From the NCBI GenBank assembly GCA_014654415.1, contig JACWDC010000008.1:1-60867 (forward strand): a stretch of 60,867 nucleotides of DNA, written 5' to 3'. Under the pieces are notes generated by a model. The model saw only the letters and a program-made list of their open reading frames with translations. It was not told the origin of the DNA and searched no databases. The first letter of the stretch is position 1. Each line of letters starts with the position of its first letter. This stretch comes from Pelagibacterales bacterium SAG-MED05. GTDB taxonomy: Bacteria; Pseudomonadota; Alphaproteobacteria; Pelagibacterales; Pelagibacteraceae. The position numbers were made by a program, and so were the translations under genes. Below, piece by piece: positions 1 to 33,754 of the stretch.

Positions 1-148
1 TAGGTTCTTCCTTTTTAGCTTCTGCTTTAGGTTCTTCCTTTTTAGCTTCTGCTTTAGGTTCTTCCTTTTTAGCTTCTGCTTTAGGTTCTTCCTTTTTAGC
101 TTCTGCTTTAGGTTCTTCCTTTTTAGCTTCTGCTTTAGGTTCTTCCTT
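1..148 (-). repeat. In-frame 27-bp tandem repeat in the rpsP tail
   Basis: Five perfect head-to-tail copies of a 27-bp unit (1-27, 28-54, 55-81, 82-108, 109-135) plus a partial copy to about 148. The array may continue to the left of the window. The unit is exactly 9 codons and encodes PKAEAKKEE, so copy-number changes would keep the frame. It lies inside rpsP and is a coding repeat, not a CRISPR. Confidence 0.95.
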
Positions 149-460
149 GCCTTCTTTTTTTCTATCTTTCTTCGGTATAGCTTTTAAAGGATTGTTGCTA
201 GGTTTGGGCATTGGCATTAATTGCATTTCACCCAATATTCGAGACACTCTTAAAGTTGGCTGAGCACCTTTACTCATCCAATACTTTACTCTCTCGAATT
301 CAATCTTAATTCTATCTTTTTTATCTTTTGGTAAAAGAGGATTGTAAGATCCTATTTTTTCTATAAATTTACCATCTCTTGGGTATCTTCCGTCGGCTAC
401 TACTATTTTATAAACAGGTCTTTTTCTTACACCGCCCATTGATAATCTTATTCTTAACAT
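1..460 (-). CDS. rpsP: 30S ribosomal protein S16, repeat-tailed, 3' end outside window
   Basis: Small-subunit ribosomal protein bS16. The N-terminus reads MLRIRLSMGGVRKRPVYKIV, a classic S16 start, and the fold continues through residue ~85 (ISYNPLLPK-like and GAQPTLRVSRIL segments). After that comes an Ala/Lys/Glu/Pro-rich tail made of 9-residue repeats (PKAEAKKEE). At least 153 codons are visible against roughly 80-100 for a typical S16, and the stop lies beyond base 1. The gene starts 10 bp after the ffh stop, so the two are probably co-transcribed, as is common for ffh-rpsP(-rimM-trmD-rplS). The S16 identity is secure. The role of the tail is unknown. Confidence 0.95.
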   Translation of the reverse strand, partial: MLRIRLSMGGVRKRPVYKIVVADGRYPRDGKFIEKIGSYNPLLPKDKKDRIKIEFERVKYWMSKGAQPTLRVSRILGEMQLMPMPKPSNNPLKAIPKKDRKKEGKEEPKAEAKKEEPKAEAKKEEPKAEAKKEEPKAEAKKEEPKAEAKKEEP

Positions 461-470
461 ATTTTACCTT

Positions 471-1823
471 TCATTTTAGTTGATTAAGCATTTCATCTGG
501 AATTACTCCTGATGGAATTTTTTTTCCTTGTGACATTTTTTTCATCATCTCTGACATCATTTTAAATTGTTTAAGTAATTTATTAATCTTAGAAACATCT
601 ACACCTGATCCTATTGATATTCTTTTTCTTCTAGATCCACTAATAATTTTTGGATTTTCTTTTTCTTTTTTAGTCATTGATAAAATTATAGATTCATTTT
701 CTATTAACATTTTTTCATCTATGTTTGCTTGATTCATTTTTGCTTTCATTTTATTCACTCCTGGTAACATTGACATAACGCCTTCCATGCCACCCATCTT
801 CTTCATCTGTCTTATCTGGGAAAGGTAAGAGTCCATTGTAAATATTCCTTTTTTAAATTCATCCTCTGTTTCCTTAATTTTTTCTTCACTTAAATCTTGT
901 TGCGCTTTTTCTACTAAAGAAACAACATCCCCCATGCCTAAAATTCTATTTGCTAGTCTATCAGGGTGAAATATTTCGAGATCTGTAATTTTTTCTCCTA
1001 CTCCAATAAATTTTATCGGTTTACCTGTAACGTGTTTCATGCTCAACGCTGCTCCACCTCTCGCATCACCATCAACTCTTGTAAGAATGATTCCTGAAAG
1101 ATTAACTGCAGTATCAAATTCTTTAGCTACATTTACAGCTATTTGTCCTGTTAAAGAGTCTGCGACTAAGATGGTTTCAGCTGGGTTTGTAATGTCTTTA
1201 ATTTGTTTTATTTCAGACATCATAGGTAGATCTATTTGAGTTCTACCTGCTGTATCAAAAATTATAATATCCGAACCATTTAGATTGGCAGCATTCAAAG
1301 CTCTTTTGGTAATATCGATTGGTTGTTGCTTTTCAACTATTGGTAAACATTGAATCTCATTTGCTTCTGCAAGTATTTTAAGCTGCTCTTGAGCCGCTGG
1401 TCTATAAACGTCCAAACTAACTAGCATTACTTTTTTTTTATTATTTCTCTCAATGTTTTTTGCTAGTTTCGCTGCTGAGGTTGTTTTTCCTGAACCTTGT
1501 AAGCCAACTAATAATAAAGATACTGGCGGAACAGCATTAAAATTTAATTTTTCATTTTTAGAACCTAAAATATTTAGTAATTCGTCATAAACAATTTTAA
1601 CTATCATCTGACCAGCAGAAGTTGATTTAATAATCTCTTGACCGATAGCTTTTGGTTTCACATTTGAAATAAATTCTTTAGTGACAGAAAGAGCTACATC
1701 TGCCTCTAATAAAGCTATTCGTATTTCTTTTAAACCAGATTCAACCTGCTCCACTGTTAAAGAGGGGGCGCTTTTAAGTTTAGAAAAAATATTTTCTAAT
1801 TTATTTGTTAAGTTTTCAAACAT
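471..1823 (-). CDS. ffh: Signal recognition particle protein Ffh
   Basis: GTPase subunit of the signal recognition particle. It binds 4.5S RNA and signal peptides and delivers nascent membrane proteins to FtsY. N domain ~1-95; G domain with P-loop GLQGSGKTT at ~107-115, DTAGRTQ and TRVDGDARGG; methionine-rich M domain from ~300 (MKKMGGMEGVMSMLPG, KMMSEMMKKM). I start at the ATG at 1821-1823 (MFENLTNKL, the usual family start) and not at the in-frame ATG six codons upstream, giving 450 aa. A structured leader RNA lies immediately upstream, and rpsP follows 10 bp downstream. Confidence 0.96.
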   Translation of the reverse strand: MFENLTNKLENIFSKLKSAPSLTVEQVESGLKEIRIALLEADVALSVTKEFISNVKPKAIGQEIIKSTSAGQMIVKIVYDELLNILGSKNEKLNFNAVPPVSLLLVGLQGSGKTTSAAKLAKNIERNNKKKVMLVSLDVYRPAAQEQLKILAEANEIQCLPIVEKQQPIDITKRALNAANLNGSDIIIFDTAGRTQIDLPMMSEIKQIKDITNPAETILVADSLTGQIAVNVAKEFDTAVNLSGIILTRVDGDARGGAALSMKHVTGKPIKFIGVGEKITDLEIFHPDRLANRILGMGDVVSLVEKAQQDLSEEKIKETEDEFKKGIFTMDSYLSQIRQMKKMGGMEGVMSMLPGVNKMKAKMNQANIDEKMLIENESIILSMTKKEKENPKIISGSRRKRISIGSGVDVSKINKLLKQFKMMSEMMKKMSQGKKIPSGVIPDEMLNQLK

Positions 1824-1827
1824 TTTA

Positions 1828-1966
1828 ATAACATCCAACACCTATCGCACTAGTGGGCGAACCTTCGCTGACTAGTGTCGACACTCTTGATTTTAAGAGC
1901 AACGCAAAAACTTAGGTATTTGCGGAAAGTTTGGAGAAACTACAATTTGGGGTTTTAAAAGTCAAT
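1828..1966 (-). ncRNA. Structured RNA leader preceding ffh (ffh motif-like)
   Basis: The 164-bp gap between ffh and dapF is clearly richer in G and C than its surroundings and can form stems. Stem 1 pairs 1848-1854 with 1871-1877 (CACTAGT/ACTAGTG) and encloses GCGA-ACCT-TCGC (1857-1860/1865-1868). Stem 2 pairs 1884-1888 with 1895-1899 (CTCTT/AAGAG). Comparative work on Pelagibacter intergenic regions is known to have described a conserved cis-regulatory RNA before the SRP protein gene, and this fits in position and character. The strand is inferred from ffh. It is not 4.5S RNA: the conserved domain-IV sequence is missing. Boundaries are approximate. Confidence 0.7.
1937..1965 (-). promoter_or_regulatory. 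Possible promoter of the ffh leader
   Basis: On the minus strand TTGACT (1965-1960) is followed after 17 bp by TAGTTT (1942-1937). The -35 is good and the -10 is weak. Transcription from here would make a leader of about 110 nt containing both hairpins. Confidence 0.35.
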
Positions 1967-1987
1967 GAATAATTATACTAATCAATT

Positions 1988-2806
1988 ATGGCAACTATTA
2001 ACGCTTACAAAATGGATGGATTAGGAAATGATTTTATCATCATCGATAGAAGGGGAAGCTCTATTAATTTAACAAAAGAAAAAATTATTGAATTGGGAGG
2101 TAGAACTAATATTGGTTTTGATCAAATAATCTTTATAGAAAAAGAAAAAGAAAATTCTTACCCTATAACAATTTTTAACTCTGACGGAGGCGAAGTAAGT
2201 GCTTGTGGAAATGGAGCTAGGTGCGTGGCCTATCTTTTGGCTAAAAATTTAAATATTAAGGAAATTAAATTACAAACAAACAATAGAATACTTAATGCTA
2301 AAATAATTAAAAATTTTTATGTCGAACTTGAAATGGGAAAACCTTTATTTGATTCTGAAGATATTCCATTATCTAAAACAATAGATTCAGGCAACATAAC
2401 TTTAAACATTGATAATAAAACATTTGCTGGTGGGTTTTGTGTAAATGTTGGGAATCCACATATAATTTTCTTTGTTAAAGATTGTTTCGATCATGATTTA
2501 AAAATTATTGGTCCTAAGATTGAAAACCATAACCTTTTTCCAGAAAAAACCAATGTTACATTTGCTCAAGTGATTGATAAAAAAAATATAAAAGTAAATG
2601 TCTGGGAAAGAGGTGCTGGACTTACTAAGGCTTGTGGAACAGCCGCTTGCGCAACAGCTGCTGCTGCTTTAAAAAACAAATTAGTAAACAATAAAGTTGA
2701 TATAAAATTTAAAGAGGGTCTTTTGAATATAGAGATAGATAAATCAAATAATATATTTATGACTGGACCTGTTTCTGAGATAAAAAATATAAAAATAAAT
2801 ATCTAA
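1988..2806 (+). CDS. dapF: Diaminopimelate epimerase
   Basis: Converts LL- to meso-diaminopimelate for lysine and peptidoglycan synthesis in the cytoplasm. The two catalytic cysteines are present: C73 in SACGNGARC and C216 in TKACGTAAC. The N-terminal KMDGLGNDF signature and GNPH motif are also there. The 272 aa length is normal. Starts at ATG 1988, divergent from ffh, and ends 1 bp before ftsY, so the two are probably one transcript. In many alphaproteobacteria a methylthiotransferase gene sits between dapF and ftsY; here it is absent. Confidence 0.97.
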   Translation: MATINAYKMDGLGNDFIIIDRRGSSINLTKEKIIELGGRTNIGFDQIIFIEKEKENSYPITIFNSDGGEVSACGNGARCVAYLLAKNLNIKEIKLQTNNRILNAKIIKNFYVELEMGKPLFDSEDIPLSKTIDSGNITLNIDNKTFAGGFCVNVGNPHIIFFVKDCFDHDLKIIGPKIENHNLFPEKTNVTFAQVIDKKNIKVNVWERGAGLTKACGTAACATAAAALKNKLVNNKVDIKFKEGLLNIEIDKSNNIFMTGPVSEIKNIKINI

Positions 2807-31591: not shown

Positions 31592-33754
31592 GTGGCTAAG
31601 AAGAAGAAAAAGAGAAGAGTAAAAAAATCTAGAAAAAAAACTAGAAGAGTAAAAAAATCTAGAAAAAAAACTAGAAGAGTAAAAAAATCTAGAAAAAAAA
31701 CTAGAAGAGTAAAAAAATCTAGAAAAAAAACTAGAAGAGTAAAAAAATCTAGAAAAAGAAAAGTTTCAAAAAAACGACAAACTTTTAAAGCACCATATCA
31801 ATCCAAAGATAGTGAAGGTAATACCTTAATTAAAGTCTCTGATAGTTGGGCTCACCACGCATACGTTAATGAGTCTAAGTATAAAAAAAAATATAAGCTT
31901 TCTATTAAAGAAAATGAAAAATTCTGGGGCAAAGAGGGAAAAAGAATTTCCTGGATAAAAAAATATACTAAAATTAAAGACGTTAAATATAGTAAAGAGG
32001 AAGTTAAAATTAAATGGTACTATGATGGCACATTAAATGCTTCTGCAAATTGCATTGATCGTCATTTAAAGAAAAACCCAAAAAAAACAGCTATCATTTG
32101 GGTAGGTGATGATCCTTCTGACTCGAAAAAGATTTCATATAAGGAATTACACCAAAATGTTTGTAAAGCTGCAAATGGATTAAAAAGTATTGGCGTTCAA
32201 AAAGGTGACAGAGTGACAATTTATCTTACAATGATACCTGAGTTAGCTTATGTGATGTTGGCTTGTGCAAGAATTGGAGCTGTACATTCAATTATATTTG
32301 GTGGTTTTTCTCCTGACTCAATAGCAACAAGAATAAATGATTGTGAATCTGATTATTTAATAACTGCAGATGAAGGTGTTAGAGGGGGTAAAATTGTTCC
32401 ACTAAAAAAGATAGCTGATGATGCTTTATCACAATGTCCAGACGTTAAAAAATGTGTGGTAATTCAGAGAACAGGTAATCAAGTAGACTGGAATAATGAA
32501 AGAGATATTTCTTATAAAGAAATGATTTCTTCTGCATCAAATAAATGTGATCCTGAAGAGATGAGCGCTGAAGATCCATTGTTTATACTTTATACTTCTG
32601 GCTCTACTGGAAAACCTAAAGGAGTTCTACATACAACAGGTGGTTATATGGTTTATGCATCAATGACTCATCAATATATTTTTGATTATAAAAGTAATGA
32701 TGTTTATTGGTGTACTGCGGACATTGGTTGGGTAACAGGGCACAGTTATATTATTTATGGTCCTCTAGCTAATGGAGCAACTACTATTATGTTTGAAGGA
32801 ATTCCAAATTACCCTGATAGTTCGCGTTGGTGGCAGATCGTAGATAAATATAAGGTTAACATTTTTTATACAGCTCCAACCGCAATTAGAGCTTTGATGA
32901 GAGAAGGAGACAAACCAGTTAAAAAAACAAGCAGGAAGTCATTAAAATTATTAGGTACTGTGGGAGAGCCCATCAATCCAGAGGCTTGGATGTGGTATTA
33001 CAAAACAGTTGGGGATTCTAGATGTCCAATAGTTGATACTTGGTGGCAAACTGAAACGGGAGGAATATTAATTTCTCCTCAACCCGGAGCTATAGATTTA
33101 AAACCTGGTTCAGCAACTAAACCATTTTATGGGATTAAGCCTGTAATAGTGGACAAAGATGGTAAAGTTATAAAAGGTGAGGGAAAAGGAAGATTGTGTA
33201 TGGCCCAATCTTGGCCTGGTCAAATGCGAACAGTATATGGTGACCATCAAAGATTTATTGATACTTATTTTTCTCAAGTTGACGGAAAATATTTTACAGG
33301 AGATGGATGTAGAAGAGATAAAGATGGATATTACTGGATTACAGGAAGAGTAGATGATGTAATTATTGTATCAGGTCATAATCTTGGAACAGCAGAAATT
33401 GAAAGTGCTTTTGTTGCGCATCCAAAAGTTGCTGAAGCGGCTGTAGTTGGTTTTCCACATAGTATTAAAGGAAATGGTTTATATTGTTATGTTACTCTAA
33501 ACGTAGGTGAACAAGCCACGGGTGACTTAGAAAGAGATCTTAAGCTCTGGGTAAGAAAACAAATCGGACCAATAGCAACACCGGATGTAGTTCAATTTGC
33601 TCCTGGTTTGCCTAAGACACGATCTGGAAAAATTATGAGAAGAATTTTAAGAAAGATTGCAGCTAACGACCCTGATAATTTAGGAGATACGACTACATTA
33701 GCTGATCCAAGTGTTGTCGAGTCTTTAGTCCAGAATAGACAAAATAAAGGTTAA
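31592..33754 (+). CDS. acsA: Acetyl-CoA synthetase with Lys/Arg repeat tail
   Basis: 720 aa AMP-forming acetate-CoA ligase. Start GTG 31592 with AGGGG 6 nt upstream. Residues ~1-62 are an extreme basic tail built of 10-residue repeats ([10 protein letters not shown]). The Acs fold follows: [31 protein letters not shown] (ATP), [24 protein letters not shown] and the catalytic Lys in [13 protein letters not shown]. Normal Acs is ~650 aa. No ATG, GTG or TTG start is apparent between tail and Acs fold, so the tail is probably translated. Near an acetate-type symporter. Confidence 0.95.
31621..31756 (+). repeat. In-frame 30-bp tandem repeat at the acsA 5' end
   Basis: Four identical 30-bp units at 31621-31650, 31651-31680, 31681-31710 and 31711-31740, with a partial fifth to 31756. 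Each encodes ten residues rich in Lys and Arg. Copy changes keep frame. No spacers, so not a CRISPR. Confidence 0.95.

Follow-up and report, generated by a model that had tools for sequence, protein, structure and literature searches.

The structured RNA that precedes ffh in Pelagibacterales bacterium SAG-MED05 is a member of Rfam family RF01793 ("ffh motif"), and related leaders persist in genomes of the PS1 clade in which no SRP component was detected. The identity and the architecture of the element are firm. The Rfam scan of the whole window (the complete stretch of 60,867 nt analysed here) returned two matches only, one tRNA and RF01793, the latter at positions 1892-1840 of the minus strand, covering the model end to end with a score of 43.4 bits against a gathering cut-off of 35; RF00169 (small SRP RNA) gave no match in the window. 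A single copy of the leader was found in the source genome, which is 87% complete. The motif was described in Pelagibacter in 2009 (Meyer et al., PMC2704228, available text), so that the family is already catalogued and the window copy is another member of it, while its function, left open in 2009, is still unexplained in the literature searched. A preliminary description of this DNA, made from the sequence, had proposed a structured leader RNA adjoining ffh of a kind known from Pelagibacter, to be checked with a covariance model of the ffh motif and by pairing covariation; the Rfam match and the 2009 report agree with this proposal, and the fold and the compensatory changes given below bear it out.

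The span 1828-1966 singled out in that description is promoter plus leader. On the minus strand, a promoter at 1937-1965 comprises a -35 box TTGACT (1965-1960), a 17-nt spacer and a -10 box TAGTTT (1942-1937), from which the 5' leader RNA would run from about 1930 to 1824, a predicted length that fits the ~110 nt given earlier. The leader contains three helices, a layout kept in 51 SAR11 leaders: the structure announced as "two stems" is thus present, and the number of stems has to be corrected. Helix P1 (1902-1925, CCGCAAA ... UUUGCGU, strands 1925-1919 and 1908-1902) is followed by helix P2 (1879-1904, strands 1904-1894 and 1889-1879), the base of which has three letters in common with the 3' strand of P1. 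Hairpin P3 (1848-1877) is the paired part of RF01793 and carries a C.C mismatch with an adjacent A.C. The tail after P3 (1835-1847, CGAUAGGUGUUGG) contains few U in the window, and in SAR11 it extends into the probable ribosome-binding region of ffh. The region is GC-rich as had been noticed: the window as a whole has a G+C content of 30%, whereas 1828-1966 has 40%, 1824-1930 has 42% and P3 has 57%, parts of ffh also reaching 40%.

The first gene 3' of the leader is ffh (471-1823, minus strand), whose translation is the SRP protein Ffh; TIGR00959 detects Ffh in this genome with a best E value of 4.8e-169. The GTG at 1841 proposed as its start in the list of open reading frames was rejected and the ATG at 1823-1821 was used, because Ffh begins with MFENL at 1823; 24 nt separate P3 from this ATG, which places the leader directly before ffh. 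The next gene is rpsP (ribosomal protein S16, 1-460, minus strand), cut by the contig end and named by reading its translation (MLRIRLSMGGVRKRPVYK...). Its 3' part harbours a perfect 27-bp tandem repeat (window 1-148, 5.5 copies) coding for a Lys/Ala/Glu/Pro-rich tail of S16; another tandem repeat, of 30 bp (31602-31757, 5.2 copies, 97% match), lies at the start of a 720-residue open reading frame (31592-33754). On the other side, the divergent neighbour dapF (1988-2806, plus strand) was likewise named by reading the open reading frame. A -10-like TACAAT directed towards dapF (1941-1946, plus strand) overlaps the ffh promoter on the opposite strand, so that the divergent promoters may overlap.

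The region 1936-1824 of the minus strand (113 nt) folds at -36.6 kcal/mol (z = -4.9), and none of 200 shuffled sequences folded as well. Covariation was assessed on two alignments. A1 comprises 51 SAR11 leaders, obtained from 55 by removing repeated rows and those containing N; A2 comprises 87 sequences, obtained from 120 by removing such rows and also near-identical ones from SAR11. Seven of the 75 genomes matched by RF01793 are not represented in these alignments (G073, G177, G230, G243, G251, G336 and G344). In A1, 95.7% of the cells of P1, P2 and P3 are paired, against 38-48% in controls obtained by sliding, and double changes, affecting both sides of a pair, number 105 cells against 31 in shuffled alignments, none of 500 shuffles attaining the observed count. 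The count of pair types did not exceed shuffles for the three SAR11 helices together, for SAR11 P2, or in the test of PS1 P3 described below. All three helices contain compensatory changes among the relatives' sequences. In the 51 SAR11 leaders, P1 has seven pairs with 97.5% of cells paired, two of them changed on both sides; its outer pair is broken in the window by a one-letter difference from near relatives, the sole such row. Seven of the 11 pairs of P2 are changed on both sides in SAR11, the RF01793 model including only the 3' strand of this helix, as unpaired positions. P3 has 11 of 12 pairs changed on both sides in A2, with 147 double-changed cells against 43 in shuffles (0/500). Its C.C mismatch is present in all but one of the 87 sequences, and the adjacent site is A.C in 56, A.A in eight, U.U in one and a standard pair in 22. 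When eight P2 and P3 pairs were mapped on a tree of Ffh N-termini, each had changed one to 10 times, hence the covariation counts do not all reflect one inherited event. Two further pairings seen in the window fold were set aside: that of the leader 5' end with GUUGG, whose letters are not kept among relatives (by eye), and a UCG/CGA extension of P3, since relatives mix both linker forms with both tail forms (by eye).

One letter common to P1 and to the base of P2, here named y, has two possible partners, x within P1 and z within P2. The combination x-y-z is G-C-G in 33 and A-U-A in 16 of the 51 SAR11 leaders, with two exceptions, and the concerted switch occurred twice, independently, on the SAR11 tree. 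This pattern is suggestive of two mutually exclusive pairings, two switches in sequence data being too few for proof. Outside SAR11, the P1/P2 pattern matched 21 of 65 leaders, a mixed and partly spurious set.

The inverted repeats of P3 could also serve as a palindrome in DNA, bound by a protein, or as structure in an RNA of the dapF strand, a reading to which the plus strand lends some weight as it folds at least as well (-38.6 kcal/mol, z = -6.3) and as the A.C cells found in 56 of 87 sequences at one P3 site, which taken alone favours the opposite strand, would be G-U there. The remaining pairs point the other way: P3 outside the mismatch site contains 26 G-U against two A-C cells in A2, P1 and P2 contain 24 G-U against seven A-C cells in SAR11, and one P2 pair is G-U in 50 of 51 SAR11 leaders. 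This excess of G-U over A-C favours the ffh strand, towards which a promoter-like motif is also directed at a similar distance in each locus, and we regard a DNA palindrome or dapF-strand RNA as very improbable.

The position of the leader is conserved well beyond the window. Among 103 copies with a placeable ffh, 100 lie just before ffh on the same strand, with 7-282 nt left between their end and the match to the Ffh profile, distances being taken from the end of the match to R1, a wider model built from A2, to the start of the profile match and not to the start codon; the count rests on the 150 R1 matches and 150 ffh matches listed, 47 R1 matches with no listed ffh partner being uncounted. 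As for the three exceptions, the copies in G066 and G258 also precede an ffh, the second ffh copy in these two genomes being probably contamination, and that in G230 fits a contig break. A locus with 284 nt between motif and ffh (L033, genome G340) shows what looks by eye like a small reading frame in between, so that ffh does not follow the leader directly in every case. Downstream, rpsP was recognised by a simple pattern in 17 of 20 fetched regions, and the operon extends to trmD and rplS in several loci. The leader likely acts in cis on the ffh-rpsP operon, and since this operon reaches rpsP and beyond, ffh need not be the target of the leader.

RF01793 matched 55 of 60 genomes sampled from the family of the window and 75 of 289 alphaproteobacterial genomes at E≤0.001. 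With R1, 186 of the 289 were matched at E≤0.01, a different limit that has to be kept in mind when the two counts are compared, only one of the 186 lying above 0.001; the other 103 gave no R1 match at this threshold. In a sample of 200 genomes from the phylum, 48 matched R1, namely 47 from the same class, including that of the window, and one weak match (24.5 bits) from another class. A direct search of 16 regions upstream of ffh, taken from genomes negative for R1 in the genome scan, recovered two relatives, scoring 32.8 and 18.3 bits, and a third, doubtful match (8.8 bits, E = 0.35). The 2009 survey, in its available text, reports the motif in every completely sequenced member of the Rhodobacterales, Sphingomonadales and Rhizobiales as well as in Pelagibacter, and its absence from Rhodospirillales and Caulobacterales (PMC2704228). 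In Mesorhizobium huakuii, one plasmid intergenic region is labelled RF01793 in the part of PMC5596092 seen here.

In all 120 loci (55 SAR11 and 65 others), the 100 nt preceding the motif contain a TTGAC, at distances of 29 to 99 nt, where base composition would predict about 10 such loci. A TA at the -10 place, 17 nt further on, is found in the consensus of SAR11 and in that of the other Alphaproteobacteria; the two boxes form a conserved sigma-70-like promoter, TTGAC-N17-TAnntt. A generic promoter scan did not list the TTGACT/TAGTTT pair of the window and listed another site, with a TATAAT ending at 1972. At the other end of the leader, conservation of the tail outside SAR11 extends to position 13 and is gone by position 15. 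The nine positions after P3 are enriched in U both outside SAR11 (4.43 against 3.05 expected, z = 7.8, 63 tails) and in SAR11 (4.04 against 3.08, z = 5.0). The classical terminator tail score is hardly raised over shuffles in the former (2.47 against 2.34) and lies below them in the latter (2.02 against 2.34), the U run of SAR11 tails, that of the window included, being broken by G; a simple terminator scan of window positions 1700-2100 found none. P3 would therefore be no more than a weak or assisted terminator, and may not be a terminator at all in SAR11. The distance from the end of P3 to the ffh start is 20-31 nt in SAR11 (n = 55), and that to the downstream start is 16-292 nt elsewhere (median 52, 57 of 65 loci measured).

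The marine PS1 clade supplied new evidence as to function. In three genomes of family f50 (G108, G232 and G327), the leader was found before rpsP even though TIGR00959 and 4.5S RNA gave no match. A pattern scan of named genomes then identified the clade through 12 loci (titled PS1 clade, OCS116 cluster, MED-G09, Rhodobiaceae, Hyphomicrobiales or Alphaproteobacteria bacterium), at least three of which are the same contigs as those of these three genomes, and in all 12 the leader lies directly before rpsP with no ffh between. These loci have a dapF-like open reading frame divergent to the leader and, where the contig is long enough, trmD, rplS and leu-like genes after rpsP, all named by reading. 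The family set was defined as 18 genomes (G108, G232, G327 and G346-G360), six of them at least 90% complete, and a search at the level of the order gave the same 18. In these draft genomes, the Ffh/FtsY GTPase domain (PF00448) was matched in none of 18 at E≤1e-5, against 14 of 14 controls, the best fragments in three of the PS1 genomes having E values of 0.007-0.03, and 4.5S RNA (RF00169) was matched in none of 18 at E≤10, against 13 of 14 controls. The leader was detected with R1 in 14 of the 18; the four with no R1 match include G346, which is 96% complete.

Within PS1, rpsP starts 34-41 nt after P3 in 25 of 25 locus entries, some genomes being entered twice. Identity between two locus groups is 81% in P3, against 49% in the tail, 50% in the spacer and 40% in the upstream stretch. 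P3 contains eight double-changed cells against 3.2 in shuffles (10 rows), carried by two pairs only. For P2, five or six of six positions can pair in 10 of 10 rows when the best complement in the vicinity is taken as partner. The identity of P3 and its compensatory pairs make the RNA appear to be under selection in the absence of the SRP. Judging from missing matches in draft genomes, this free-living marine clade has apparently lost the whole SRP pathway; no work linking PS1 with the loss of SRP or ffh was found among the literature matches listed, and an earlier report may exist. As the leader is kept where no SRP was detected, it does not seem to need it. A new role gained by the leader in PS1 is possible and is a less simple explanation. 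The clade can be regarded as a natural experiment that argues against SRP sensing and directs attention to the ribosomal genes of the operon, and the loss, if real, bears on how dispensable the SRP is. Apart from PS1, eight more alphaproteobacterial genomes gave no TIGR00959 or RF00169 match (G076, G207, G113, G188, G289, G280, G311 and G343), with only weak partial PF00448 matches, two of them, in G289, near the cut-off; some of these genomes being small or incomplete, loss, divergence or missing sequence may all explain this.

We tentatively favour a cis-acting attenuator leader of the ffh-rpsP(-rimM-trmD-rplS) operon whose signal is linked to ribosome supply and not to the SRP, a proposal that we place somewhat short of probable. 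The leader would be transcribed from its own sigma-70-like promoter and fold into P1, P2 and P3; P3 and the U/G-rich tail would stop or stall part of transcription, stopping leaving an RNA of about 110 nt, and some factor binding or reshaping the leader would set the flow into the operon. The signal is probably connected with ribosome supply, through S16, L19 or a further factor that the operon encodes, and the P1/P2 overlap might take part. Attenuation is preferred because, outside SAR11, promoter and tail are conserved and the distance to the gene is not. Several observations speak against an attenuator: the poor terminator features of the SAR11 tails, a PS1 tail whose conservation (49%) does not surpass that of the spacer (50%), and the lack of an R1 match in 103 of 289 Alphaproteobacteria and in four of 18 PS1 genomes. 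S16 is a candidate ligand on account of the operon content and of an S16 leader proposed in Flavobacteria (PMC7247131, available text), and the S16 gene indeed follows the leader in 25 of 25 PS1 locus entries and, by the simple pattern, in 17 of the 20 regions fetched. A bolder version, which we consider doubtful, is that RF01793 has no connection with the SRP and is instead a leader, present in much of the Alphaproteobacteria, that governs expression of the ffh-rpsP-rimM-trmD-rplS operon in response to a ribosomal protein, S16 as first choice, via the P1/P2 overlap and the attenuator hairpin marked by C.C, and that it outlived the loss of the SRP in PS1.

The main rival in SAR11 is control of translation, in which P3 and the tail would gate ribosome loading on ffh with no termination of the transcript. 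The SAR11 spacing, short and narrow with P3 only 20-31 nt before the ffh start (n = 55), means that translation could be the level of control; the tail GUUGGA sits where a ribosome-binding site would, and in the window fold it pairs with the leader 5' end. This pairing is not kept in relatives (by eye), and P3 and the tail are conserved in 57 other loci despite a spacing of 16-292 nt (median 52); we consider translational control rather unlikely. A stand-alone RNA acting in trans that lies before ffh by chance, or an RNA cut from the 5' UTR by RNase E, would agree with the presence of its own promoter in 120 of 120 loci and with the expression listed in Bartonella (PMC7717549), the array signal in S. 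meliloti (PMC2573895) and the metatranscriptomes (PMC2704228), as given in the available parts of these papers. It is, however, unlikely given a position before the operon that is kept across the class, even where ffh is missing, and the single copy found in the genome; moreover most of the conserved letters sit in helices and the loops are variable (by eye), so that there is no obvious conserved seed. Finally, Ffh, alone or with 4.5S RNA, could bind the leader and repress its own synthesis, as suggested by the 100 of 103 copies just before ffh and by the precedent of autoregulation by RNA-binding proteins raised in the available text of PMC2704228. Autoregulation of this kind would require a cell that also contains Ffh or 4.5S RNA, and PS1 keeps the leader and its pairing with no detected Ffh, FtsY or 4.5S RNA, a change of ligand in that clade being possible. 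A loose pattern built on the letters of the Ffh-binding 4.5S RNA helix gave no sign that the leader mimics it, one of 120 leaders matching, and the 2009 authors saw no likeness either in the part of their paper available (PMC2704228). SRP sensing by the leader is therefore unlikely, and an Ffh-bound, self-repressing leader distinctly so.

Compared with known systems, the window copy shares with RF01793 the gene, the strand and the hairpin with two conserved cytosines. The Rfam model contains only P3 and short flanks, beginning within the 3' strand of P2, and the P1 and P2 pairing, the promoter and the full tail lie outside it; the window copy and the five genus mates listed score near 42 bits, whereas most of the family score some 10 bits higher. 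As to expression, the 'ffH leader RNA' is listed as expressed in Bartonella bacilliformis (PMC7717549, available text), and a transcript of the motif is said to have been seen in metatranscriptomes (PMC2704228, available text). With the small SRP RNA (RF00169), only the SRP context of the neighbourhood is common, the Ffh-binding letters being absent from the leaders apart from one loose match in 120. In S. meliloti, the independently predicted sRNA candidate sm5 lies between dapF and ffh. Its predicted length is 108-258 nt, a sigma-70 promoter and a Rho-independent terminator were predicted for it, and arrays showed signal from the ffh strand, with no northern blot in the available text of PMC2573895. 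It resembles the leader in gene pair (dapF and ffh, divergent), strand and length, a likeness by description, and differs in being treated as an sRNA gene in that text. The flavobacterial rpsP leader, for which S16 was proposed as ligand, is like the ffh leader in being structured and in preceding an operon with rpsP (S16) and rimM (PMC7247131, available text). It belongs to another phylum, and 'ffh' is absent from the main text available; the likeness is one of operon content.
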